From Trichocoleus desertorum NBK24 (GTDB lineage: Bacteria; Cyanobacteriota; Cyanobacteriia; FACHB-46), in NCBI RefSeq assembly GCF_030409055.1, contig NZ_CP116619.1, positions 1,087,628-1,151,627 on the forward strand: a DNA stretch of 64,000 bases. The letters are read 5' to 3'. The notes under the pieces are model-generated. The model worked only from the letters and a program-made list of their open reading frames with translations. It was not told the origin of the DNA and searched no databases. This document shows, one piece after another, positions 36,301 through 53,964 of this stretch. The position numbers were made by a program, and so were the translations under genes. Positions within the stretch are counted from its first letter, which is position 1, and each line of letters opens with the position of its first letter.

Positions 36301-38322
36301 GTGATCCTCAAATTTCCTCGTGCGCCTCGGATTGAGTGGTCAGAGTTGACGGGTGTGCCCGTAGTAGCGATCGCCAGCCTTGTCATTACTGGTTTGGTGC
36401 TGGGAGTACGCCACCTGGGAGGGCTACAAGCTCTAGAACTAGCAGCCTTTGATCGCATGGTGCAGCTCCGCCCCCAAGCTGAACCTGATTCACGACTTCT
36501 AGTCGTTGCCATTACCGAAGCTGACCTAAAAACGCAGCAACGTTGGCCCATTACCGATCAAGTCCTGGCGCGAGCTTTAGCCAATTTACAAAAAGCCCAA
36601 CCGCGACTGATTGGCTTAGATATCTATCGGAATTTACCCCAACCCCCCGGACAGAAGGCGCTCACTCAGCAGTTCCAAGCGCCCAACGTCATTGCCATTA
36701 CTAATCTAGGCGACGCAGATGGCATTGCCCCTCCCGCAGCAGTACCGAGCGATCGCGTGGGCTTTAATGATGTGGTGACGGATGCCGATGGAGTAATCCG
36801 GCGCAACTTTATGTTTGGCAGCACAGATACTACAGAGTTTACTTCTCTGTCTCTCCTGCTAGCACAGCGTTACTTAGCCGCTCAGCAACTATTACCGCAG
36901 CAACCTTGGAACAATTACGGCTTAGTTGAGTGGGGGCAAGCCACTTTTGCACCCTTGCAACCCGATGCTGGCGCGTATCAGAATGCAGATGCTGGTGCTT
37001 ACCAAATCTTGTTGAATTACCGGGCAGGGCAGAATGTGGTGCCACAGGTAACCTTGACCCAAGTCTTAAATCAGCAGGTTGATCCAGCCTTGATTAAAGA
37101 CAAAATTGTGCTGATTGGTACCACTGCATCGAGCCTGAAAGACCAGTTTTTCACGCCCTACAGTTCGGCGGCCTGGGTGAATAACCCCAACATGCCGGGA
37201 GTGTTGATTCATGCTCAGATGGTAAGCCAAATTCTGGATGCGGTTTCTGGCGATCGCCCTTTGTTTTGGTTTTGGTCAGAGTGGGCAGAAGTTCTTTGGA
37301 TTTCCAGTTGGGCCGTAGTAGGGGGTAGCATTGCTTGGATCATGCGCCAGCCGTTTGCTCTAGGATTGAGTGGCATCCTGCTGCTGGGGGTTCTCTCTGG
37401 CACTTCCTTTGGCATCTTTCTGCACCAAGGCTGGGTGCCTCTAATTACCCCAGCGATCGCAGCGGTCGCGACGGGTGGTCTAGTGGTCAGTTATCGGGCT
37501 CAGCAAGCCCAGCGCCAACAGCAAACGGTGATGACCTTGCTCGGACAAAATACTTCCCCAGAAATTGCCGCTGCCTTATGGCGGGGTCGCGATCGCCTAC
37601 TCAAGTCAGGCAAGCTCCCCGGACAAAGGCTGACCGCAACTGTGTTGTTCACCGATATTAAAGACTTTAGTACTGTCTCTGAGCAAATGTCTCCTGAGGC
37701 TTTATTAAACTGGCTAAACGAATACTTATCGGTCATGGCGCAGGAGGTACAAACCCAGCATGGCATCATCAACAAGTTCACCGGGGATGGCCTCATGGCA
37801 GTCTTTGGCGTTCCTGTGCCACGGACTAACTCAGCCGAAATTGCGGAAGATGCCAGACGAGCGGTAGCTTGTGCCTTGGCCTTTGGCGATCGCCTCCGGG
37901 AACTAAATCCTGGCTGGCAAGCACGGGGGCTACCCATTGTGCAAATGCGCGCTGGCATCTTTACGGGTCCGGTTGTCGTTGGCAGTCTAGGCGGCAAAGA
38001 GCGCCTGGAATACGGCGTGATTGGCGACAGCGTCAATATTGCCTCTCGCTTAGAGAGCTGCGAAAAAGACCGCCAAGTAGATATTTGTCGCGTCTTGATT
38101 GCCCAGGAAACCTTAGACCATTTGAACCAACAATTTGCCGTTGAGTCTTGGGGGCCACTTGCCCTTAAAGGCAAACAACAACAGGTCGATGTCTACCGGG
38201 TTATTGGCTGGCAGGTTTCACATCCCCCAGCGATCGCGCCGCCTCTATCCAGCATGGAGCTAAATCAGGAACCTTTTGTAACCAAAGTAGACATAGAAAC
38301 CAAAACGGTAGATTCTCACTAG
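36301..38322 (+). CDS. CHASE2-domain adenylate/guanylate cyclase
   Basis: This is a 673-residue class III nucleotide cyclase. An N-terminal helix precedes a CHASE2 extracytoplasmic sensor domain (about 35-320: LAAFDRMVQLRP, GLDIYRNLPQPPGQ, KIVLIGTTASSLKDQFFTPY). Three membrane helices follow (about 325-400), then the cyclase domain (about 445-615). Metal ligands Asp452 (VLFTDIKDFS) and Asp496 (NKFTGDGLMAVFG), purine-site Lys492, and Asn579 and Arg583 in GDSVNIASRLE are present, so it should be active. The second purine-selectivity position, Asp or Thr in typical adenylate cyclases, is Gly572, leaving ATP versus GTP preference open. It begins with GTG and precedes the DUF928/TPS block. Confidence 0.93.
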   Translation: MILKFPRAPRIEWSELTGVPVVAIASLVITGLVLGVRHLGGLQALELAAFDRMVQLRPQAEPDSRLLVVAITEADLKTQQRWPITDQVLARALANLQKAQPRLIGLDIYRNLPQPPGQKALTQQFQAPNVIAITNLGDADGIAPPAAVPSDRVGFNDVVTDADGVIRRNFMFGSTDTTEFTSLSLLLAQRYLAAQQLLPQQPWNNYGLVEWGQATFAPLQPDAGAYQNADAGAYQILLNYRAGQNVVPQVTLTQVLNQQVDPALIKDKIVLIGTTASSLKDQFFTPYSSAAWVNNPNMPGVLIHAQMVSQILDAVSGDRPLFWFWSEWAEVLWISSWAVVGGSIAWIMRQPFALGLSGILLLGVLSGTSFGIFLHQGWVPLITPAIAAVATGGLVVSYRAQQAQRQQQTVMTLLGQNTSPEIAAALWRGRDRLLKSGKLPGQRLTATVLFTDIKDFSTVSEQMSPEALLNWLNEYLSVMAQEVQTQHGIINKFTGDGLMAVFGVPVPRTNSAEIAEDARRAVACALAFGDRLRELNPGWQARGLPIVQMRAGIFTGPVVVGSLGGKERLEYGVIGDSVNIASRLESCEKDRQVDICRVLIAQETLDHLNQQFAVESWGPLALKGKQQQVDVYRVIGWQVSHPPAIAPPLSSMELNQEPFVTKVDIETKTVDSH

Positions 38323-38604
38323 TAGATTCTCATTGAGGGAGCAAATTAAGGCACACTACTTTGCGGATGCGATCGCCTTACCGCTGAATCTTCAGTTATA
38401 AATACTTCAGTTACGGGTCTTCAGTTATAGGGCATTATTTACACCGTTACTCAGTGTAACGAGTCGAGCCAGCCGACCAAGCATTGCTAGGACTAGCATT
38501 TATGTCCTTATCTAGCAAATACTTATCTAGCAAATATTTTTCTTTTCTCCTCACTCTCACAATTGGCTCTTGCGATGTTTAACATCCCCATACGGGTGAT
38601 CAGT

Positions 38605-39414
38605 ATGCGTCAGAAACAATCCCGGACAACTTTGCTAAAAACTTGTCTAGCCCTCTCTCTAGGGTTATTTGTCTGTAGCTGGCCTACAATCACTCTCGCT
38701 CAAAACCAGCAGCCATCCAGCACCGTCAAACGCCGTCTGCCAGGTCGTCGGGTAGGGGCTGGCACTCGTGGGCCTTGCACGAATCCTAAGCAACCCTTGG
38801 TAGCCTTGATCCCTGATACCAATCTAGGGCTGACTGCCGAAAAGTATCCGACCTTCTTTTGGTTCATTCCGTCTACACCAGCACGCACCGCTGAATTTGT
38901 GCTGAACAATGAGAAGAAACAGGAGATCTACAAAACAACTTTTGCGATTACTGGGTCGCCAGGAGTCATCAACCTCACCCTGCCCGCAAATGCGACCTTA
39001 CCGCCGCTAGAAGTGAACAAGAATTACTCTTGGACGTTTTCTTTAATCTGCAATCCGTCCGATCCTTCCGCCGTTGATTTTGTCCAAGGATGGGTGCAAC
39101 GGGTGGCCCTCAGCCGCAATGTAGGAAATCAACTGACCAAAGCCGCCCCACGCGATCGCCCCGCTATCTATGCAGGAGCAGGCATCTGGAACGATACTCT
39201 CAAGAGTCTGAGCGAGTTACGCCGAGCCAACCCTCGCGATCGCGCCTTAAATACAGATTGGGAAACTGTGCTGAAGTCGGTGGGGCTAGAGACTGTCGCC
39301 AAGGCTCCTTTGGTGCAGTGTTGCTCTCAAACCAATTCTCCAGCAACCGATTCTCGTTCTACCAGCCCCACTCCTCGTTCCCGAAGTTCTGCCTCTCCCA
39401 ACAACACGCGCTAG
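38605..39414 (+). CDS. DUF928 secreted protein (first copy)
   Basis: This is a 269-residue protein. From ATG 38605 a signal peptide is evident (LLKTCLALSLGLFVCSWPTI, cleavage near TLAQ). Earlier in-frame starts would only lengthen the n-region. The mature protein opens with KRRLPGRRVGAGTRGPC, the basic DUF928 signature, then LVALIPDTNLGLTAEKYPTF, FWFIPSTPA, YSWTFSLICNP and WVQRVALS. The C-terminus is Ser/Thr/Arg-rich and variable. DUF928 has no established function; the fold is probably beta-rich and extracytoplasmic. A second DUF928 gene lies beyond the TPS pair at 45843-46700, and the two share the whole core. Regular occurrence beside CHASE2, CHAT and TPS genes is my recollection of other cyanobacteria. 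Confidence 0.85.
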   Translation: MRQKQSRTTLLKTCLALSLGLFVCSWPTITLAQNQQPSSTVKRRLPGRRVGAGTRGPCTNPKQPLVALIPDTNLGLTAEKYPTFFWFIPSTPARTAEFVLNNEKKQEIYKTTFAITGSPGVINLTLPANATLPPLEVNKNYSWTFSLICNPSDPSAVDFVQGWVQRVALSRNVGNQLTKAAPRDRPAIYAGAGIWNDTLKSLSELRRANPRDRALNTDWETVLKSVGLETVAKAPLVQCCSQTNSPATDSRSTSPTPRSRSSASPNNTR

Positions 39415-39697
39415 GATTCTAGCTGCCCAATCTCTCACTCAGGTATGAAGCTGGTTGTAGATGTTGCTGGTGCGTAGATACCCAGCGCCTCGATCAGCTT
39501 CTTTATTATTTTTGATACAAACTTAACTATCAATACATAGAAGCGCGATAATTTAGTTCTATGCAAGTTATCCGCTACAACCAAAACAATCAGGGGATTT
39601 CAGCGACACCTGAGCAATATTCATGGTGACTTGATGGCGCTGAATTTTAGGTTTATCTCTTCGAATTGTTCTTTTATTACAAATTGGTAGGACGCTG

Positions 39698-42600
39698 ATG
39701 CTTCAGTCAGCTCTAAAAAGCGGTCATTGGCCGCTGCTAGTTGCTCTTTTGCTAAATTTGCTGCTCCCTGATGCGGTTCCAGCCCAATTGTTGCCTGCGA
39801 CCGATGGCAACAATACCCAGGTGATACAGAACGGCAATCAGTTGAACATTACAGGTGGGCAGCTATCTGGCGATCGCAGCAATCTCTTCCATAGCTTTAC
39901 CCAGTTCAACCTAGATGTTAATCAGATTGCCAACTTTCTATCTAGCCCCAATCTTCAGAATATTCTGGCTCGGATTAATGGCAGTGACGCTTCAGTCATT
40001 AATGGAGTGTTGCAGGTCAGTGGAGGCAACTCTAACCTGTTTCTGCTCAATCCCTCTGGCATTATTTTTGGCCCCAATGCTAGCTTAAATTTACCTGCCT
40101 CCTTTACCGCAACTACAGCCAGTAGCATTGGGTTCGGTAACGATTGGTTTAATGCAGTTGGGGCTAGCGACTATGCAGCGCTCAACGGTAGCCCTAACAC
40201 GTTTGCCTTTACGCAGAGCCAGCCAGGAGCGATCGCCAATGCTGGCAACTTAGCAGTGGCTCCGGGCAGCAATCTCACGCTTCTCGGTGGAACGGTGCTC
40301 AGTACGGGGCAACTCGCAGCTCCAAATGGACAAATTGCGATCGCTGCTGTACCCGGTCAGAACTTAGTGCGGCTCAGCCAACCGGGGAGTCCTCTGAGCT
40401 TAGAAATCCAGCCTCTCACGCCTAGCACCTCCGCCTCCAGCGACACTCAACCAACGGCCCCAAACTTACCAACTGCGATTTCGCTACCAGAACTCCTAAC
40501 CGGAGGCGAATGGAGTAGCGCGACTGGAGTCAGCGTGAACGAGCAAGGTCAAGTAGCGCTAACAGGCTCAGGACTGGGAGCCGAGCCAGGAGATGTTGTG
40601 GTTCAAGGTGGTGTCACGGCCCAAGCAACATCCTTGTCCGCTACTAACAATCTCACCCTCGTAGAAAGCGAACTACGAACTACAGCAGACTTGCACCTAC
40701 TAGCCCAAAATACAGTCCGGATGAGGGATAGTGCGACTACACCGTTTTTGGCTCAAGCGAGTGGCAACCTATTGATTCGAGGCAACCAAGGGATTGATAT
40801 TTTGGCCTTGCAGCATCCAGGCGTACCGTTCCAAAGTGGTCAAGATTTGACTTTAGCTAGTAACGGTGTGATTTCGGCAGATGCTCGCTTTGCTAGTCAA
40901 GGGCAGTTCTCGATCTTGACTTTAGACAATACCCCAGGAAACTTTGTCAGCTTATACGACCCCATTATTAGTGCTGATGGTGATGTGGTTTTAGGGGACT
41001 ATACAGGAGCTGCGCTCAAGATTGAGGCGACTGGCAGTATTACAGCAGGTAATATCACCATTACGTCACCCGACTTTACCTTTGGTTTGGCCCCTGCCAA
41101 TGCAGACCAAGCTTTGCTAGCATCCTCCCTAGCTTTAATTCTGCGGGCTGGCGTCACAACTCTGGAAGAAACAACCTCTGCTACACCCCCTCCCTTTGTC
41201 CTGAGTGCTGCTTCATCTCCAGCAACGATTACGGTTGGTAACATTGCAACCTTTAGTCCGCCTATTGCAACCTTTTCCCAGGATAGTGGGCCTGTAGTTC
41301 TAAGTGCTCCAGGAGATATTACGACGGGTAATATCGACACCTACTCACTGAACTCGACACAGGTAGGTAATGGGGGTGATGTGCAAATCACTTCGACGGC
41401 TGGTAGCGTAGCCACCGAGCTGATTAATACTTTCGTGCAGAAGTTGGGTGGAGGAGGTTTTGTTGGTACAGCAGGAGATGTCAACATCAGTGCTGCAACA
41501 GGTATAGATACAAATGCCATCAATGCCTCGGCGAGTGCAACAGGGGTCGATGGATCGGCGATCGCAGCGGGAGGGCAAGTAACTCTCCAAACCCTAAACC
41601 CTGAAAGCAACATCCGTTTTACCAGCATTGATACCCAAGGGATCATAGATGCTTTTGATGGCAATGTGGGTCAAGGGGGAGAGGTGCAGGTGTTAGCGAA
41701 GGGAGTCGTGCAAGGAATCGGCACCTTAGCGAGTACAGGAGATACAATTAACAGCCAAGGTAGTACGGGTGCTGGTTTGATTACGATTCAGCACAATGGA
41801 GGGCCAGATAATGTGCCCTTTGTGGTGGGCGATCCAGGACTCAACGGTACCGCTGGAGCGATCAGTGCTGGAGCCATTACAGCAATCCCGCTCGGTACTA
41901 GCTTGCCTGTGCTACCTGAAGATGGGGTCGCTAGTGAAACCCCTAGTGAGATTCAAATTATTTCTATTAATACTGCACCGACGATCGCAGTTGCTCCAGT
42001 GCTGTCGGGAGCGCAGCAAGATCAGCCTTTTGAGTTCATTTTCAATCCAACCACGGAAGACGTGAACAGCGACGGGACTAGCGACAATACAACCGTTTTG
42101 CTTGATTCAGTTTTGGTTGGAACGCTGCAAAGAGGTGAAACAGTCTTGAACCCTGGGGATCTCCTGGTACCTGGGGAAACTTTGGTTTATACTCCTCCCG
42201 CTGGTTCTAGCGGCTCCTTGGATGCGCTGAGGGTGAGGAGTAGCGATCGCGTCTCCTCTTCACCCTTGGCTGCGATCGGGATCGACGTACAAGCGACAAT
42301 ACCCGAACCTGACCCTGAACCCGAACCTGACCCTGAACCTGACCCTGAACCTGACCCTGAACCCGAACCTGAGCCAGAACCTGAACCTGAGCCACAGCCT
42401 TTGCCAGATCCCACCTGTGCTTTTCAGTGTCGGCCTACCGCTAGTATTCCAACGATTCAGGCTGCTGCGGAAACCGTGCTGATCAATACGCCAGAAGCTG
42501 GCTTTACTCGGCAGTTTCAGGAATATTTTGGCTGGTCAGCCATTACCCTGCGTACTGTAAATGAGGAACGAGAGTTAGCGCGCGAAATTGAACGAGCGAC

Positions 42601-43729
42601 GGGGGCAAAACCTGCTTTTATCTATGTCAGTTTTGTGCCTGCTCAGCTAGGACTGAGTGAACAATTGGGGGCTGAGGCACAAGACGGAGATCAACTGGAA
42701 TTATTCGTTATTACGGCTCAGGGCAACCCAATTCGGCACCGCATTCCCACCGCTACGCGATCGCAAGTTCTAGCCATTGCTAAAGCCTTTCGGGGTGCAG
42801 TAGCCGATCCACGCCAAATGGATAACACCAACTATCTAGAGCCTGCCCAGCAATTGTATCGCTGGTTGGTGGCACCTCTCGAAACAGAGCTGAAAGCGAG
42901 GGGCATTAATAATTTGGTGTTTCTGATGGATACGGGGTTGCGATCGCTGCCAGTCGCCGCATTGCATGACGGTCAACAGTTCCTGGTGGAGCAATATAGT
43001 GTGGGTTTAATGCCAAGCTTGAGCTTGACGGATACTCGCTATACCAACATTCGAGACTCCCAAGTTTTAGCGATGGGAGTGTCGGAAAGTACCCAAGATC
43101 AATCTCCATTACCTGCGGTGCCAGTTGAGCTAACGACGCTGGTGCTGAAATTGTGGCCGGGAAGATTGCTCCTCAACGCCCAAGCCACGCTCAACAATCT
43201 CAAGGTGAGCGAACAGCAACCGTTTGGCATTGTGCATCTGGCGACCCATGCCAGCTTTAACGCGGGGACTCCCAGCAATTCCTATATTCAGTTGTGGAAT
43301 GACAAGCTGCGGCTGGATCAAATGCGGCAACTGGGTTTTAATGCGCCACAGGTGGAAATGCTGGTACTGAGTGCCTGTCAAACTGCTTTGGGTGATGCAG
43401 AAGCAGAACTAGGGTTTGCTGGCTTGGCTGTGCAGGCGGGTGTAAAAACTTCGCTAGCTAGCCTCTGGTATGTCAGCGATGCCGCCACGACTGGATTAAT
43501 GACCGAGTTTTATCAAGCCTTGCGAACTGCGCCGATTAAGGCAGAAGCTCTACGGCAAGCTCAGGTGGCAATGGCTAAAGGCCAAATCTACCTAGAAGAC
43601 GACCAGCTCAGAGGATTGAGCGGTGTGAATAGTTTAGTGCTACCACCCGAAAGTGCAGGTCTGGGCGATCGCGAACTTTCCCATCCTTACTATTGGGCTG
43701 CCTTCACGATGGTTGGCAATCCTTGGTAA
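39698..43729 (+). CDS. TpsA-like exoprotein with C-terminal CHAT protease domain
   Basis: This is a 1343-residue protein. A signal peptide (WPLLVALLLNLLLPDAVPAQ) leads into a filamentous-haemagglutinin N-terminal TPS secretion domain (about 30-260: NGNQLNITGG, SNLFHSFTQFNLD, NLFLLNPSGIIFGPNASL). A beta-helix-like repetitive region (about 260-800) is followed by a cadherin-like stretch and a (Pro-Glu/Asp-Pro) linker (about 868-905). The C-terminal CHAT domain (about 930-1343) is a caspase-like peptidase with intact His1184 (VHLATHASF) and Cys1227 (LSACQTALGD). It is thus predicted to be exported by a TpsB porin and to display a protease at the surface or outside. The TpsB gene is convergent, 28 bp from this stop. 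Confidence 0.92.
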   Translation: MLQSALKSGHWPLLVALLLNLLLPDAVPAQLLPATDGNNTQVIQNGNQLNITGGQLSGDRSNLFHSFTQFNLDVNQIANFLSSPNLQNILARINGSDASVINGVLQVSGGNSNLFLLNPSGIIFGPNASLNLPASFTATTASSIGFGNDWFNAVGASDYAALNGSPNTFAFTQSQPGAIANAGNLAVAPGSNLTLLGGTVLSTGQLAAPNGQIAIAAVPGQNLVRLSQPGSPLSLEIQPLTPSTSASSDTQPTAPNLPTAISLPELLTGGEWSSATGVSVNEQGQVALTGSGLGAEPGDVVVQGGVTAQATSLSATNNLTLVESELRTTADLHLLAQNTVRMRDSATTPFLAQASGNLLIRGNQGIDILALQHPGVPFQSGQDLTLASNGVISADARFASQGQFSILTLDNTPGNFVSLYDPIISADGDVVLGDYTGAALKIEATGSITAGNITITSPDFTFGLAPANADQALLASSLALILRAGVTTLEETTSATPPPFVLSAASSPATITVGNIATFSPPIATFSQDSGPVVLSAPGDITTGNIDTYSLNSTQVGNGGDVQITSTAGSVATELINTFVQKLGGGGFVGTAGDVNISAATGIDTNAINASASATGVDGSAIAAGGQVTLQTLNPESNIRFTSIDTQGIIDAFDGNVGQGGEVQVLAKGVVQGIGTLASTGDTINSQGSTGAGLITIQHNGGPDNVPFVVGDPGLNGTAGAISAGAITAIPLGTSLPVLPEDGVASETPSEIQIISINTAPTIAVAPVLSGAQQDQPFEFIFNPTTEDVNSDGTSDNTTVLLDSVLVGTLQRGETVLNPGDLLVPGETLVYTPPAGSSGSLDALRVRSSDRVSSSPLAAIGIDVQATIPEPDPEPEPDPEPDPEPDPEPEPEPEPEPEPQPLPDPTCAFQCRPTASIPTIQAAAETVLINTPEAGFTRQFQEYFGWSAITLRTVNEERELAREIERATGAKPAFIYVSFVPAQLGLSEQLGAEAQDGDQLELFVITAQGNPIRHRIPTATRSQVLAIAKAFRGAVADPRQMDNTNYLEPAQQLYRWLVAPLETELKARGINNLVFLMDTGLRSLPVAALHDGQQFLVEQYSVGLMPSLSLTDTRYTNIRDSQVLAMGVSESTQDQSPLPAVPVELTTLVLKLWPGRLLLNAQATLNNLKVSEQQPFGIVHLATHASFNAGTPSNSYIQLWNDKLRLDQMRQLGFNAPQVEMLVLSACQTALGDAEAELGFAGLAVQAGVKTSLASLWYVSDAATTGLMTEFYQALRTAPIKAEALRQAQVAMAKGQIYLEDDQLRGLSGVNSLVLPPESAGLGDRELSHPYYWAAFTMVGNPW
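42301..42402 (+). repeat. Pro-Glu/Pro-Asp coding repeat linker
   Basis: Tandem hexanucleotide-based repeats (GAACCT, GACCCT and variants) encode an acidic PEPDPEP-type linker of about 34 residues between the beta-rich exoprotein body and the CHAT domain. A rigid extended spacer is the expected structure. Its near-perfect DNA repeats should make it variable in length between strains. Confidence 0.85.
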
Positions 43730-43757
43730 AGCTGCTTAGTTCTAGTAAAGCCATGAG

Positions 43758-45608
43758 TTAAGGTCGGATGACCACACTAAAATAGACTGCTTCGTCTTGG
43801 GCATTCTGGCCGCGATCGCTCAAGTCCACCAAGGGAAAGGCATAATCTAAGCGAATGTTGAGACCTGCCACGGGTCGCCACAGTAGCCCAACGCCTGCGC
43901 CCGCTAGAAATCGTTCATCGTTAAGCTCGTTGGGGTTTCTTGGATTGTTCCACACCGCTCCTAAATCGAAAAAAGGAGCAAGTTGGAGGATAGGTAGCCC
44001 TGCTTCATTACGCTGCAAAGCAATCCGATCTTCGAGCGAAAAGCGGACACCGTTATCTCCAGAGCGGGCATTTTGCCTAAACCCACGTACTGACTGGCCC
44101 CCACCAATCACAAACTGCTGTGAGGGCAAGAGACTGTCGGGTGTGAGTTGTAAGTCTAACTGAGCAATCAGTAAGTTATCTGTACCCAGTACCTGAACCC
44201 GCTGAGCCTGTCCTAACCAACTAAAGAACCGCCCATCAGGAATTGGATCAGGATTGGTAGTGGCATCAAAGACATCCACCCCAACATTAAACTGCGATCG
44301 CAAAGCCCAAGCTCCGCCCGGATCACGCTTGACATAATCTTGACCAAACTTGATCACGCTGGTGCGGCTAATGCCATTCGGCCCCGTACCGAGCACAAAG
44401 GGGTTAGGAATGTCGTTAAACAGGAAAGTCTGCCCATCTTGGAAGGTAAAGCCCAGAGAGAGCGCTAATTCTTCTCGGGGCGATCGCACCAAAGGCTGAC
44501 GATAGCTAATCTCATACAACTCAGAACTGCCGCGAATCCCTAAATCTGCAAATTCAGGGTCAGTAATTTTGTAATCATTGGGGGCAGCGCGTAATTGAAT
44601 CGTCCCGTTCATGGCATTAACAGGGACTCGGTAGCTAAAGTCATACAACTCCGCACCACCCGTTGTAGAAACGTAGTAAGCACCTGCGAGTTGATCGCCC
44701 ACTCCGGTTAAGTTGCGATGCACAGCACTCACCCCTAGGCGCTCAGAGCCAACACTGGGCGGTGAATAGTTGTCAGCACTCAAGTAAAAGTCAAACGGAT
44801 TCGCTTCTGTCACCCGAACGGTCAAAATACTTTGGCCGAGTTGCTCTCCCGCGCGTAGATTGGCTTCGACGTTCTTAAATAGAGGGTCAGTTTTCAGCAG
44901 GCGCAGTTGATCTTCCAAATCGTCTTTCTTCAGCGGCGTTTTTGCCCCCAACTGAATGCGATCGCGAATGTAACTCGTGTTAACCCGACGATTGCCTTCG
45001 ACTTCAATGCGTTCCAGACTGCCTTCAATCACGCGAATCCTAACGACACCATCCGTAATCGTTTGATCCACCAAGACAGCGCGAGAAGTGATATAGCCTT
45101 GGTTGAGATAGAGCTGCGTAATGGCATCGGCCACAGTCCGTAGTTGCTCCAAGGTCAAAGAACGACCTTCGTAGGGCTGCACGATGGGGTCTAGTTCTCT
45201 TGGCCCCAAAATCGTACTACCAATCACTTCAATGTTTTTAACCGGAATCGTCACATCAGGCTGAACTGGGCGGGTTTCTGGGCTAGGCGTGGGTAAGATC
45301 GGCTGTTCTTCTTCCTCCGGAGTGGGCGTTGGCAACGTCGGTTGGGGTTGCAGGAAGCGGTCTTGGTTGGGATCGAGTTGCGGATTAGCAACAGGCGGAG
45401 TGGGCACACTCTGAGCGACCAAGTTGCCTAGCTCTCCGGCTCCAGTACTATGAGAGCTAGGATTAGCCCAAGCAGAAGTGCTGTTGAGCGGCATCGGTAT
45501 TAAGGTCGTGGCTAACAGCCCCACAGCTTTTGCTCTGAGTCCTCCCTGGAGCCAGAGAAACTGCCAAAAATCTGTTCTCACACTCCATCCCACTTGCTGC
45601 TTCCGCAC
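43758..45608 (-). CDS. ShlB/FhaC/HecB-family outer-membrane TpsB transporter
   Basis: This is a 616-residue two-partner-secretion porin of the Omp85 superfamily. A signal-like N-terminus is followed by a Pro/Thr/Glu-rich linker (about 70-115). Two POTRA domains follow (about 118-270: VKNIEVIGSTILGPRELDPI; LERIEVEGNRRVNTSYIRDR). The 16-strand barrel spans about 275-616, ending in YFSVVIRP. The conserved lid-loop motif VRGF (SVRGFRQNARSGDNG) is present. It should export the adjacent TpsA-CHAT protein. TpsA and TpsB are usually co-oriented; here they converge. The start is GTG, with further in-frame GTGs nearby, so the N-terminus is uncertain. Confidence 0.92.
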   Translation of the reverse strand: MRKQQVGWSVRTDFWQFLWLQGGLRAKAVGLLATTLIPMPLNSTSAWANPSSHSTGAGELGNLVAQSVPTPPVANPQLDPNQDRFLQPQPTLPTPTPEEEEQPILPTPSPETRPVQPDVTIPVKNIEVIGSTILGPRELDPIVQPYEGRSLTLEQLRTVADAITQLYLNQGYITSRAVLVDQTITDGVVRIRVIEGSLERIEVEGNRRVNTSYIRDRIQLGAKTPLKKDDLEDQLRLLKTDPLFKNVEANLRAGEQLGQSILTVRVTEANPFDFYLSADNYSPPSVGSERLGVSAVHRNLTGVGDQLAGAYYVSTTGGAELYDFSYRVPVNAMNGTIQLRAAPNDYKITDPEFADLGIRGSSELYEISYRQPLVRSPREELALSLGFTFQDGQTFLFNDIPNPFVLGTGPNGISRTSVIKFGQDYVKRDPGGAWALRSQFNVGVDVFDATTNPDPIPDGRFFSWLGQAQRVQVLGTDNLLIAQLDLQLTPDSLLPSQQFVIGGGQSVRGFRQNARSGDNGVRFSLEDRIALQRNEAGLPILQLAPFFDLGAVWNNPRNPNELNDERFLAGAGVGLLWRPVAGLNIRLDYAFPLVDLSDRGQNAQDEAVYFSVVIRP

Positions 45609-45842
45609 AATTTGTTGCTCTCTATAAACTACGGCTCAAGTTTCAGCGCTAGGCATAAGCAGGACTAGCTAGAAGATTGTACGTCAAGTATCTCCGGTCT
45701 TAAATTCTGAACCAGAGATTTGCAAGTAAGCGTCTACAATTGTGGCAACCCTAGCTCCTTATGGGCCCTTCCTGCTGTGTTTCCTAGCGTAGCTCTGAGC
45801 CTACAGGATGCTGCTGCTGAATTGATCCACAAGAGTTTTTTT

Positions 45843-46700
45843 ATGCCTCAGGTTAATATTTACAAAACTTTTATCGCTGTTGGGTTGACGATAGGTTTGT
45901 CATGGGGGGTGGACAGTTTTCAGCCAGCCTCAGCAATGCAGTTTCGAGCGACAAATCGTAAACTACCAGGTCGGCGGGTCGGGGCAGGAACCAGAGCTTT
46001 TGTGCGACCTAAGGTGGGTGCTCCTAGGACGCGAGGACCCGTACAAGTGGCACCACCACCCAGTCCTAGAATCCCAGGACGGCGGCAGGGAGCAGGTTCA
46101 CGAGGTCCAGGTTTAGTTGAGTGTTTACCCGCTAACTCTGGCTCGTTAGTGGCTTTGTTACCCGATACCAATTTAGGGCTAACAACCGCAGCTTACCCAC
46201 GATTTTTCTGGTCTGTGCCGTCAACCAATGCACCTCTCATGGAATTCACGCTCCACGAGGTAGATGCCAAGCAAGCTAACCGTAACTTGATTTACAAAAC
46301 CACCTTCAGCACCACAGGCGAAGCAGGAATTGCCAGCCTCAGCTTACCGACGGATGTCAATCTGCCTCCGTTGAAACTGGGCCAAGACTACCGTTGGTCT
46401 GTGGCCCTCATTTGCAATCCTGGCGATCGCTCTCAAGACGTAACAGTTGATGGTTGGGTGCAACGAGTCGTCCCTAGTTCAACCGTTGCTCAACAGTTAA
46501 AACAGGCCACTCCTCGCGATCGCTCTTTTATCTACGCCCAAAATAGCCTTTGGTTCAACACGATTGAAACGCTGGTAGACCAACGCTGTGCCCGCCCCCA
46601 GGATGCAGACTTAGCAGCTAGTTGGGCCGAGTTGATGAAGTCGGTGAATTTAGAGGCGATCGCCAATCAACCTCCTGTTTGCTTAAAAGATGAGGGATGA
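45843..46700 (+). CDS. DUF928 secreted protein (second copy)
   Basis: This is a 285-residue protein from ATG 45843, with a signal peptide (YKTFIAVGLTIGLSWGVDSF, cleavage after PASA); the open frame extends back to 45720. The basic signature is duplicated: RKLPGRRVGAGTR and RIPGRRQGAGSRGPG, separated by an Arg/Pro-rich spacer. The DUF928 core follows: LVALLPDTNLGLTTAAYPRF, FWSVPSTNAP, YRWSVALICNPGDRS and WVQRVVPS. It matches the first copy at 38605-39414 across the core, so they are paralogues flanking the TpsA/TpsB pair. The 3' end (KDEG) is encoded by GATGAGG repeat DNA. The gene is divergent from the tpsB gene. Confidence 0.85.
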   Translation: MPQVNIYKTFIAVGLTIGLSWGVDSFQPASAMQFRATNRKLPGRRVGAGTRAFVRPKVGAPRTRGPVQVAPPPSPRIPGRRQGAGSRGPGLVECLPANSGSLVALLPDTNLGLTTAAYPRFFWSVPSTNAPLMEFTLHEVDAKQANRNLIYKTTFSTTGEAGIASLSLPTDVNLPPLKLGQDYRWSVALICNPGDRSQDVTVDGWVQRVVPSSTVAQQLKQATPRDRSFIYAQNSLWFNTIETLVDQRCARPQDADLAASWAELMKSVNLEAIANQPPVCLKDEG

Positions 46701-50525: not shown

Positions 50526-51756
50526 GACCAAACTACAGATAACGTTACTATAGGCGGCACTTCCAGCCCCCAGGGTTAGAAACGAAAGCACTCAAGCCAA
50601 TGCTCTCGGCTTTGATGTCGAACAATTACCGTCTATATGTTGTGGAAATTGCTGGGAAGAAAGAAAACTTAGGCAACGCGATCGCTCTGAACTCTTCTGT
50701 AATTTAGTGGGCATGATTCATTAGCTCTGCGATCGCGGATTTTCCGTAGAGATCTCGTGCAACAATCTATATTAATTGCGTGTGTTCACGGTAGTATTCG
50801 CCATATCAATCAACCAAACGCATCAACTCAAGCATTTTTACAATTCAGTACTTGCGTATAGTTTTGTCATCAGTAACAAAGCGCTACACCATCAGTATGA
50901 GCATACGTCAGTACCGTATTAACTATTAACTTTGCAGGTGACGCTACTTAGGAAAAGGCACATTACACCGAGTCCTAATGACTAAAAAACAGCGAAAAAC
51001 CTAAAACTGTAAATATCTTTAATTGCTTGGAGATATTGCTAAATCAGCTATTTGGCGCTCAATCAATGACCTGATTGGCTCTTGAATCGCAATTGGTAAT
51101 CAGGCTTCAGTCATCAGTGATATTAGGATGAGCCTGTAAACTATCAACCTAGAGCTTACAGGTAGGTACAAAGTTTTAATAAAGATGCAAAAACTCTGAT
51201 TACACTTGCTAACTCTGTGAGTACTCTAGAACTGGAATTGAAGCTGTGTATATCACCCAGATGAGTGGTAGAACTAAGTCTCTAGAATTATTCTCAAATC
51301 GAGGTAGCAAAGATACAGGCGATCGCATTCTTAGGGGAGGCATCTACCCCGACTCTGGAGTTAATCAGAGACTAGGGCTGCTGAATGCAAGTGAGTGATG
51401 GCTACACTTACTTCTCTGAATACAAATTTGCCACTCAAAAAATAAACAGCTCAAGCCGGGAACTTCTACTCTCAAGTAGCGTTCTAAACACATACGGGTA
51501 TCCTTGCAGACCAGTAACTCTGAAAGCGTTTAACTTTTGCAATCAGCATAGGCGAAGCGTTTCCAGAAAGCTGTAATTGCTAATGCCCTCTAAATCTTGT
51601 TTTCTTTTAGACATCTACTGATTTTATTACTTACTCTCTAGCAAGACTCAGCTCAGGACTATCTAGACTAAAAATTTTGATACTTGGTTGAATTGCCTGC
51701 TGCTAGAGTCGCGTTTTCTGTTTGTTGTTTATTCACCGTTCAGTGAGGATTCTTCT
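50526..51756. other. Long intergenic region, no supported gene
   Basis: This 1.23-kb stretch is the largest gap in the window. It is AT-rich with scattered HIP1 sites (for example near 50678). The longest open frame (51385-51576) has no ribosome-binding site and a composition unlike the neighbouring genes. I see no RNA gene, repeat family or degenerate coding remnant that I could name. The last 100 bases carry the leader of the surface protein gene, including GTGAGG just before its start. Confidence 0.4.
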
Positions 51757-53964
51757 GTGATTAATCAATCAACCCGGTATGTTGTTTGTTTGGGTCTTTT
51801 GGCTGGAAGCTTGGCGATCTCAACGACCGCTCGGGCTGAGATTGCGGTAACTGGCGGTCGAACAAGCGGTGATGCTGCCTTCTTCGTTCCTGGTGTCACC
51901 AACACAGCTACCACCACGAGCACCACAAGTGGATGCGGCTGTGATTCAACCAGTACTACTTCTGCCACCACTACCTCTACTTCAGGTGGCGACACAGTTC
52001 TATTTGATGCCAAAATCCGTCAACTGAGACTGGAAACAGCAGCTGGTGTAACAGTTAATTCTCGCTTTACTCCGACTGCTGGCAGACTAGATGCCACCAC
52101 TGGTGTACCCAAGGGGGGTGAAACTGGACAGCTACAAGGCTTGCTCTCTGGTCGTGCCTTTACAGCAACTGGCAACCCAGTATTTTTCCAGAATGTAAAA
52201 ACAACTCTGGATTTCAAACTCAACTCTTTTGCACCTGACACTTTGATCGGCGGTACATTGATCACCCCCGTAACAAGTGCGAGTGGCTCCAGCAACACCT
52301 CAAATAACACCTCAAATAACACCTCAACCAATACTTCCACTAATACTTCAACCAACACTTCCACTAATACTTCCACTAACACTTCGACCAACACCTCCAG
52401 CAATAGCTCCACAGACAGTTCTGCTCCCCCAATCTTCTTGCCCATCACCGGGGTGACTCTGTCGCAAGAATCCGCTAGCTCATTCCAGGCGCAAGATGGT
52501 CAGCTATATAGCGGTAAATTCGAAGCTAACTTGCCCGGTGGCGCGATCGCTCTACCTTCTGACTATCGCTTTACTGCTGGTAGCACAACACCAAACTTGC
52601 CTCCTAGCACTCCCATTGGTAGCGGCAACACCAAGTTTAAGTTTGAAGGTCAAGGCCAAGGTACGACTACCTTTGCGAGCACCACTGGCACCAACAGCAC
52701 AGTTGATTTTGATAGTGCTAGCAGCAAGACAGAGTTCAAAGTTGAAGGTGCAAACTTCAAGGTTGAAGGTAGAAGCGATGGTCCTACCGACTTCAAACTC
52801 AGCGGCATCAACAGCACTGGCGTAACTGGAAACATCGCCTTCAAAGGTGACACCAAGTTCAAGCTAGAAGGTCAAGGCGTTGGTACGACTCAACTCGATA
52901 CCTCCACTGGTGAAGTGGGCTATAAGAGCACCGAAGCTAACACCAAATTCAAGATTGAAGTAGGTGCTAACAAACTAGAAGGCAATAGTGTTGGCGAAGC
53001 AGAAATCAATGTAGGTGGTATTGGTATCAGTTCCACTGGCAGCACCACAACCACTGGCGGCACAACCACAGGTAGCACCACAGGTAGCACCACAGGCAGT
53101 ACGACTGGTGGTACAACTACAGGCGGTACAACTGGCGGCACAACTACAGGTGGTACAACTGGCACAACCACAGGTAGCACGACTACTACAACGGGTGGTG
53201 CGTCTAGCGGTACGGTTAGCGGCAGCTTTACAGCCCAAACCACTTATATTCAACTCTTCACGGTTGATTCGCTCTCAACTAGCCAAGTTGCATACGTCGT
53301 CTCTCCCTCTAACAGCGATGACGACGACAACGACGATGACGATGATGATAACGAACTTGAGGTACGCCGCAATGGTAACGAAGGTCGCGGTCGTGGTCGT
53401 CGGGTAGCACGTGGTCGCCAAAGCCAGACATCTTATGTCCTCGTTGGTCCTTCTAGCCGCGTCTTCCCCGGTTTGGTTGGTTTGAGACAGCTACCTCCCG
53501 CCTCCAGCACCACTAGCACGACTGAGTCTGAGTCCACCACTGAGTCTACTGGCACAACTGGTACTAGCACCACCGAGTCTGGTGCTACAACTGAGTCCAC
53601 AGGCACTACCAGCACTGATGGCACCACCAGCACAACAACCAGCCCTAGCACTGATACTACAACTGAGTCCACCACTGAGTCTACTGGTACCACTGGTACT
53701 ACAACTGAGTCCACCACTGAGTCTACCGGTACAACTGGTACTACAACTGAGTCCACCACTGAGTCTACTGGTACCACAGACACTACCACCACCGAGTCTG
53801 GTGCTACAACTGAGTCCACAGGCACCACCAGCACTGATGGCACCACCAGCACAACAACCAGCCCTAGCACTGGTACCTCTGATGATTCCACAACGATTAA
53901 CTTCTCTAGCCCAGCGGGTACTGGAACAGTCCAGTTCACTCCTGCTCCTAGCACCAACCCATAG
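51757..53964 (+). CDS. Thr/Ser/Gly-rich repetitive secreted surface protein
   Basis: This is a 735-residue protein. I chose GTG 51757, with GAGG eight bases upstream, which yields a signal peptide (YVVCLGLLAGSLAISTTARA). The open frame reaches back to 51688. The mature part alternates ordered and low-complexity regions: a Thr/Ser segment, a (TNTS)n run at about 190-210, and a beta-rich middle (about 285-430) with repeated F.(F/L)EG.G or FKVEG elements. A Thr-Gly run (about 430-485), an acidic patch of mostly Asp (about 510-525), an Arg/Gly patch, and a Thr/Glu/Ser-rich tail of TESTGTTGTT-type repeats follow. It looks like an exported matrix, sheath or calcium-binding surface protein. No known family was recognised. 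Confidence 0.75.
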   Translation: MINQSTRYVVCLGLLAGSLAISTTARAEIAVTGGRTSGDAAFFVPGVTNTATTTSTTSGCGCDSTSTTSATTTSTSGGDTVLFDAKIRQLRLETAAGVTVNSRFTPTAGRLDATTGVPKGGETGQLQGLLSGRAFTATGNPVFFQNVKTTLDFKLNSFAPDTLIGGTLITPVTSASGSSNTSNNTSNNTSTNTSTNTSTNTSTNTSTNTSTNTSSNSSTDSSAPPIFLPITGVTLSQESASSFQAQDGQLYSGKFEANLPGGAIALPSDYRFTAGSTTPNLPPSTPIGSGNTKFKFEGQGQGTTTFASTTGTNSTVDFDSASSKTEFKVEGANFKVEGRSDGPTDFKLSGINSTGVTGNIAFKGDTKFKLEGQGVGTTQLDTSTGEVGYKSTEANTKFKIEVGANKLEGNSVGEAEINVGGIGISSTGSTTTTGGTTTGSTTGSTTGSTTGGTTTGGTTGGTTTGGTTGTTTGSTTTTTGGASSGTVSGSFTAQTTYIQLFTVDSLSTSQVAYVVSPSNSDDDDNDDDDDDNELEVRRNGNEGRGRGRRVARGRQSQTSYVLVGPSSRVFPGLVGLRQLPPASSTTSTTESESTTESTGTTGTSTTESGATTESTGTTSTDGTTSTTTSPSTDTTTESTTESTGTTGTTTESTTESTGTTGTTTESTTESTGTTDTTTTESGATTESTGTTSTDGTTSTTTSPSTGTSDDSTTINFSSPAGTGTVQFTPAPSTNP
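53514..53880 (+). repeat. Coding tandem repeats, Thr/Glu/Ser-rich
   Basis: The 3' part of the surface protein gene is made of near-identical units encoding TTESTTESTGTTGT. A longer block (GATTESTGTTSTDGTTST) occurs twice, about 240 bp apart. Antisense open frames through it are an artefact of this composition. Confidence 0.85.

Follow-up and report, generated by a model that had tools for sequence, protein, structure and literature searches.

Several described systems resemble parts of the locus reported here. In two-partner secretion (TPS, type Vb), the genes for maturation proteases appear to lie outside the TPS operons (review, PMC5422565). For the TPS route, HINT but no caspase-like protease is listed in a survey of polymorphic toxins (PMC3482391). 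CHASE2 domains are widespread sensors with unknown ligands; one such sensor protein, Dgc2 of Leptolyngbya boryana, controls motility and biofilm, and its ligand is also unknown (PMC10581220). As for DUF928 (PF06051), a CHASE2-DUF928-WD40 cluster was remarked once, in one Nostoc genome, where signalling was inferred for the WD40 proteins; no phylum-wide link of DUF928 to CHASE2, TPS or CHAT was reported there (PMC5587647). Our searches found no literature joining the CHAT domain with two-partner secretion, nor CHAT with filamentous hemagglutinin and cyanobacteria, and gave one paper in which DUF928 is named; they covered few subscription journals and are weak evidence of absence. Here, we analysed a window of 64,000 nucleotides (the whole stretch of DNA under study) from Trichocoleus desertorum NBK24, in which five neighbouring genes bring CHASE2, DUF928, TPS and CHAT domains together. 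The source genome is complete (5.46 Mb) and holds 14 CHAT domains, three DUF928, six CHASE2 and one PF03865 TpsB. The features of the locus are the following:

36301..38322, + strand: membrane sensor with CHASE2 and class III nucleotide cyclase (Pfam; catalytic motifs)
38605..39414, + strand: DUF928-1, exported, FN3/Ig-like plus four-helix protein (Pfam, AF2, Foldseek)
39698..43729, + strand: TPS-CHAT exoprotein, 1343 aa (Pfam, TIGR01901, AF2, Foldseek)
43247..43249, + strand: codon of catalytic His1184, in HLATH (computed: 39698 + 3 x 1183)
43376..43378, + strand: codon of catalytic Cys1227, in LSACQT (computed: 39698 + 3 x 1226)
43758..45608, - strand: TpsB outer-membrane transporter, POTRA_2 and ShlB barrel (Pfam)
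45843..46700, + strand: DUF928-2, second exported paralogue (Pfam; probable ATG 45843)

A sequence-only reading had described five intact open reading frames (ORFs) here. All five are intact and lie at the coordinates it gave, Pfam confirmed the domains claimed for each protein, and the CHAT dyad residues His1184 and Cys1227 lie exactly where it had placed them. It had also described the DUF928 pair as flanking the rest: the pair does bracket TPS-CHAT and TpsB, and the cyclase lies outside it. TpsB is on the strand opposite to the other four genes. Sites for operon promoters and terminators at the locus were not more numerous than in shuffled sequence. When the five proteins were submitted to PADLOC, the generic cyclase domain matched PycC models and the other four proteins had no match. 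A Pycsar or defence-system reading was rejected, as PADLOC gave only these generic cyclase hits and no linked effector.

Recurrence of the gene set around DUF928

The same reading had presented the genes as a coherent set that recurs in other cyanobacteria, and our survey bears this out. We collected 60 DUF928 regions of about 20 kb each (roughly 1-5 per genome, some 36 genera) which, together with the window and locus L024, make 62 DUF928 loci; 20 regions from elsewhere in the same kinds of genomes served as controls. Regions were annotated by home-made profile hidden Markov models seeded from the window proteins. CHASE2 was found in 43/62 DUF928 loci versus 1/20 controls (P 3e-7), CHAT in 25/62 versus 0/20 (P 2e-4), TPS in 21/62 versus 0/20 (P 2e-3) and TpsB in 13/62 versus 0/20 (P 0.03). 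These are simple Fisher and permutation tests with no species-tree correction; they treat the loci as independent, which is not fully the case, and the DUF928 matches that were sampled are those with higher scores.

Six loci hold all five components. L083 presents them as a one-strand run of TpsB, TPS, CHAT, DUF928 and CHASE2-cyclase, with CHAT unfused, while the order seen in the window, including the fusion, is found in Elainella saxicola (L163), Coleofasciculus LEGE 07092 (L208) and genome G153 (L249). TPS and CHAT are separate adjacent genes in 8 cases. We are all but certain that the locus belongs to a recurring module. As a side observation, three tandem DUF928 genes lie upstream of a TPS-CHAT fusion in L160 (4057-6691) and L210 (4898-7475).

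DUF928 and the CHASE2 sensors

The strongest links of DUF928 are to CHASE2, by adjacency, copy number and co-divergence; it is linked to TPS by presence. As immediate neighbours, DUF928 and CHASE2 genes form 47 pairs, 39 of them on the same strand and in both gene orders, and about 20 are separated by a gap or overlap of less than 50 nt. Across the survey loci, DUF928 is adjacent to CHASE2 37 times, to TPS 6 times and to TpsB twice. The copy numbers of DUF928 and CHASE2 are correlated among 67 genomes of the class (rho 0.90), and also among the 49 carrier genomes (rho 0.87). When corrected for genome size the latter value is 0.79, versus a partial rho of 0.44 with TPS. Moreover, the distance matrices of the DUF928 and CHASE2 domains show a correlation of 0.70, while within-genome shuffles of the partners average 0.41 (P 4e-4).

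The presence of DUF928 agrees with that of TPS in 64/67 genomes (both in 48, neither in 16, discordant in 3). CHASE2 and CHAT accompany DUF928 in each of its 49 genomes; in the 18 genomes devoid of DUF928, CHASE2 is found in 7 and CHAT in 13. Because copy number follows CHASE2 and presence follows TPS, DUF928 would form part of the outer side of CHASE2 sensors, in organisms presenting TPS proteins. We consider it probable that DUF928 is an extracytoplasmic partner of CHASE2.

These data also bear on the possibility that the genes merely cluster where surface and signalling genes accumulate in variable regions, without any shared pathway. The 12/62 DUF928 loci that lack all partners, the many isolated TPS-CHAT fusions and the erosion of the locus in congeners would be consistent with it. 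However, tight same-strand spacing, partner-specific co-divergence and matching copy numbers are unexpected from loose clustering, and we regard this explanation as improbable.

Both DUF928 proteins of the window are clear members of the family, with Pfam E-values of 1e-66 for DUF928-1 (ORF 38563-39414) and 2e-60 for DUF928-2 (ORF 45720-46700). Their genes likely start at ATG 38605 and ATG 45843, since signal peptides come directly after these codons; that of DUF928-1 is MRQKQSRTTLLKTCLALSLGLFVCSWPTITLA. A signal-peptide-like N-terminus is present in 81/82 surveyed DUF928 proteins. The AlphaFold2 (AF2) model of DUF928-1 (predicted local distance difference test, pLDDT, 83.7) consists of a seven-stranded FN3/Ig-like sandwich and four helices. 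Foldseek comparison of the DUF928 model with the PDB gave at most weak FN3-like fold matches, and a sequence search of the PDB gave none.

The sensor encoded beside DUF928-1 starts with a GTG codon and combines CHASE2 (E 3e-76, aa 30-342) with Guanylate_cyc (E 1e-24, aa 446-628) according to Pfam. The metal-site Asp residues and the K, N and R motifs of the cyclase are present (FTDIKDF, KFTGDG, VIGDSVNIASR); at the positions for adenylate versus guanylate specificity, Lys is present and the usual Asp/Thr position is Gly (EYGVIGDS). An 82.5% identical copy is found in congener G146. Cyclic nucleotides had been taken from the sequence as the signal input of the system. This is not supported: the cyclase produces the messenger, which is an output, and most CHASE2 proteins of the sister loci carry other outputs. 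Therefore, the cyclic nucleotide, presumably cyclic AMP, is one interchangeable output and is not general to the module. Indeed, 53 CHASE2 proteins near DUF928 comprise 17 with a cyclase, 15 with an N-terminal CHAT-like region, 8 with GGDEF (7 with EAL), 6 with histidine kinase and receiver, and singletons of other types. Since the outputs vary, the constant pair, DUF928 and CHASE2, is the extracytoplasmic one.

In L074 (6182-7156), L109 (4058-6999) and L057 (12907-13875), a DUF1822 gene is followed by one for a CHASE2 protein whose N-terminal region is CHAT-like but degenerate; the DUF1822 gene is confirmed by Pfam in L074 and L109 and recognised by sequence similarity in L057. L109 also encodes a sigma-70 region 4 protein beside them. 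This arrangement is possibly a cytoplasmic arm of the same module.

The exported CHAT domain and its possible targets

The TPS-CHAT exoprotein is composed of a signal peptide, a TPS domain (PF05860, E 3e-41, aa 30-231; TIGR01901 adhes_NPXG, 3e-23) with an NPSG motif at residue 118, a divergent passenger, a PEPDPEP linker (about aa 870-905) and a CHAT region (PF12770, E 7e-73, aa 1048-1341). The TPS region matches the HMW1-type adhesin 2odl, and residues 905-1343 correspond to a separase/Csx29-like pair of a pseudo and an active CHAT. Across 59 TPS-CHAT fusions, neither the His-Cys dyad nor the Trp and Asp of the SLWYVSD motif vary. The fusion of CHAT to a TPS export signal, proposed from the sequence, is thus upheld by a genuine TPS domain and an invariant dyad. 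When TPS-CHAT was used as the query, 69/80 loci proved to be true single-ORF fusions, in many genera.

The model of residues 905-1343 (AF2, pLDDT 92) was matched by Foldseek to Csx29/TPR-CHAT (1.8e-14), separase (6e-10) and RgpB (gingipain R, 3.5e-5), and also to SAVED-CHAT and caspases. The C-terminal region of the exoprotein further matches DdvA (8rot) by structure (E 2e-7). These matches came from fold comparison alone; searching the PDB with the CHAT sequence, even with a profile, gave nothing relevant. The His and Cys are 43 residues apart, a spacing equal to that of the Csx29 dyad H615/C658 (PMC10028731).

We predict that TPS-CHAT is secreted via TpsB. As in the window fusion, most standalone CHATs of the survey carry a signal-peptide-like N-terminus, so that a location of CHAT outside the cytoplasm, as the sequence-only reading had predicted, is very probable. 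TpsB is the sole PF03865 match in the source genome, which encodes three TPS proteins, each of them a TPS-CHAT fusion; a single canonical TpsB is therefore the probable transporter for all three. POTRA_2 has two other, weak matches, in frames of 730-816 aa that look BamA-like, judged from their size. Elsewhere in the source genome (L022, 6232-17907), two TPR-CHAT proteins, a TPS-TPR-CHAT fusion and a WD40 protein adjoin each other.

A TPS domain, a long passenger and a catalytic tip also make up CdiA-like proteins, and polymorphic toxins that are exported by other routes are known to bear caspase-like tips (PMC3482391). TPS-CHAT might accordingly be viewed as a contact-dependent or polymorphic-toxin-like effector whose CHAT domain would cut targets in other cells. 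However, over 85 fusions the median identity of the CHAT tip (54.7%) is as high as that of the export domain (TPS, 57.5%) while the passenger varies, which is the reverse of polymorphic toxins. Furthermore, the TPS-CHAT and TpsB stop codons are 28 nt apart, with no ORF and no immunity gene between them. A CdiA-type toxin was rejected on these grounds, and an effector role of this kind appears very unlikely.

What the CHAT domain may cut is suggested by two features. First, Asp1261 is invariant in the fusions and, in the AF2 model, begins the helix after the active-site Cys; in a published model of separase, the P1 Arg is contacted by an Asp close to where the corresponding helix begins (PMC4626109). 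By analogy, a preference of this CHAT for Arg is a reasonable guess, no more. Second, the flexible tail of 53/99 DUF928 proteins contains [GA][GA]x[TS]R, where shuffling predicts 1.6 proteins, and as many as 4 copies stand in tandem (e.g. GGASRG). The tail of DUF928-1 carries the motif as RRVGAGTRGPC and that of DUF928-2 has two GAG[TS]R motifs. This motif is the best candidate site for an Arg-directed cut by CHAT, or else a binding motif. The repeated GG[AG][ST]RG tails make a cleavage of DUF928 by CHAT plausible; we nonetheless rate DUF928 as a rather doubtful CHAT substrate.

Proposed module and comparison with known systems

Altogether, we propose that the block is a cyanobacterial envelope-sensing module composed of DUF928 as CHASE2 partner, surface TPS proteins, an exported CHAT and an interchangeable output, a proposal about which our confidence is evenly divided. 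For the CHASE2 domain, DUF928 would act as an extracytoplasmic co-receptor or protein ligand. TpsB would carry the TPS proteins to the cell surface, with CHAT either fused, as here, or exported separately. At the surface or in the periplasm, CHAT would then cut a partner, for which the TPS passenger and the flexible DUF928 tail are the likeliest candidates, and the cut would change the DUF928-CHASE2 state. The sensor would finally report inward through the output of the strain, which is a cyclic nucleotide in this one and c-di-GMP or a phosphorelay in others. In its most specific form, this scheme makes DUF928 proteins the ligands or co-receptors of CHASE2, and TPS-exported CHATs separase-like, Arg-directed switches that cut the GG[AG][ST]RG tails and turn the sensors on or off; taken as a whole, this version is unlikely.

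Several points weigh against the proposal. The co-divergence of DUF928 and CHASE2 could reflect co-inheritance of a cassette instead of binding. Csx29, which belongs to the CHAT proteases itself, is not known to cut after Arg, and Arg specificity cannot be assumed. The tail motif may be partly structural, since a conserved Cys follows it in many DUF928 members. While co-occurrence, which had been suggested as a check, was found around DUF928, it was found less often from the side of TPS-CHAT: among 43 long-flank (>=20 kb) fusions, only 10 are near DUF928, 7 near CHASE2 and 17 near TpsB. TPS-CHAT is therefore a widespread architecture that is part of the block only sometimes. The parts are also separable. 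Two congeners without this TPS-CHAT keep both DUF928 genes and TpsB intact, and one of them, G147, has also lost the cyclase, of which two fragments are left.

In both congeners, about 66 nt of the TPS-CHAT 3' end are left between DUF928-1 and TpsB; this remnant shows that the congeners lost the gene, rather than the window genome having recently gained it. The ratio of nonsynonymous to synonymous divergence (dN/dS) among congeners is 0.13-0.14 for DUF928-1 and 0.07-0.08 for TpsB, with a range of 0.07-0.15 over both DUF928s and TpsB, indicative of purifying selection; being intact under such selection, these proteins work without a local TPS-CHAT. The DUF928s and TpsB presumably work with other CHASE2 sensors and with TPS-CHAT paralogues, which both congener genomes have elsewhere. 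In each congener, the deletion ends on its right side at a HIP1 palindrome, GCGATCGC (window 43665; L248 11453; L247 12008), which occurs 123 times in the window; the deletions are either one shared event or HIP1-linked deletions. The synonymous divergence (dS) of DUF928-1 to G146 (window 38605-39414 versus L247 11175-11975) is 0.42, about half that of the neighbours (about 1.0), which suggests recombination across the gene. Further along the window (51688-53964), a low-complexity ORF of 758 aa, rich in Thr and Ser and probably encoding a signal peptide, is partly conserved in G147.

The main rival explanation is that CHAT matures TPS adhesins, much as SphB1 acts on filamentous hemagglutinin and LapG on CdrA; it would do so in cis here and in trans at other loci. 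DUF928 would then assist the passage of the exoprotein across the periplasm, and the role of the CHASE2 enzymes would be confined to setting the second-messenger level for adhesion or motility. This is consistent with TPS and CHAT being fused or adjacent, with the agreement of DUF928 and TPS in presence, and with the cleavage of the TPS adhesin CdrA by LapG under c-di-GMP control (PMC5422565). Moreover, CHASE2 proteins adjoin both L021, a TPS-CHAT paralogue, and L266, a relative of it (GGDEF-EAL in L021), and the congeners keep TpsB and DUF928 as expected if these served other exoproteins. Copy number and adjacency speak against it, as the copy number of DUF928 is tied more tightly to CHASE2 than to TPS, and its neighbours are CHASE2 genes much more often than TPS or TpsB genes. 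We hold maturation to be somewhat unlikely as an account of the whole block.

If the envelope-sensing module exists as proposed, DUF928 would gain a function, CHASE2 a class of ligands and CHAT proteases a role outside the cell; if CHAT does cut DUF928 tails, the module would also amount to proteolytic outside-in signalling in cyanobacteria. Our data point to a specific partner for CHASE2 that is encoded beside the sensor, namely DUF928. By prediction, the module also has a type Vb exoprotein carry a caspase/separase-like protease out of the cytoplasm, an arrangement of which the cited reviews list no example, and it ties this protease to second-messenger signalling in a phylum that forms filaments, mats and biofilms.

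The component families are known; their combination and the DUF928-CHASE2 pairing are undescribed in the searchable literature, apart from the remark in PMC5587647. With FhaB/FhaC, HMW1 and CdrA-LapG, the locus shares the TPS domain, the NPxG motif, the signal peptide and a POTRA-barrel TpsB adjoining the exoprotein, and CdrA-LapG is moreover a TPS adhesin under protease and second-messenger control. It differs from them in that the exoprotein bears its own caspase-like protease, and the CHASE2 and DUF928 partners are absent from the known TPS systems as described in PMC5422565. Csx29/TPR-CHAT (Craspase), SAVED-CHAT, separase and gingipain R share the fold of the CHAT domain (Foldseek 1e-14 to 1e-9 for Csx29 and separase). 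The window CHAT differs in that it is predicted to be extracytoplasmic and TPS-delivered, and its protein has no CRISPR effector or cyclic oligoadenylate sensor domain. DdvA, the structural match to the C-terminal region of TPS-CHAT, is likewise a membrane-signalling protein, but it is a transmembrane anti-sigma factor and not a TPS exoprotein. Finally, Dgc2 resembles the sensor described here in its extracytoplasmic CHASE2 with exchangeable output, and differs in that a DUF928 partner was not proposed there.

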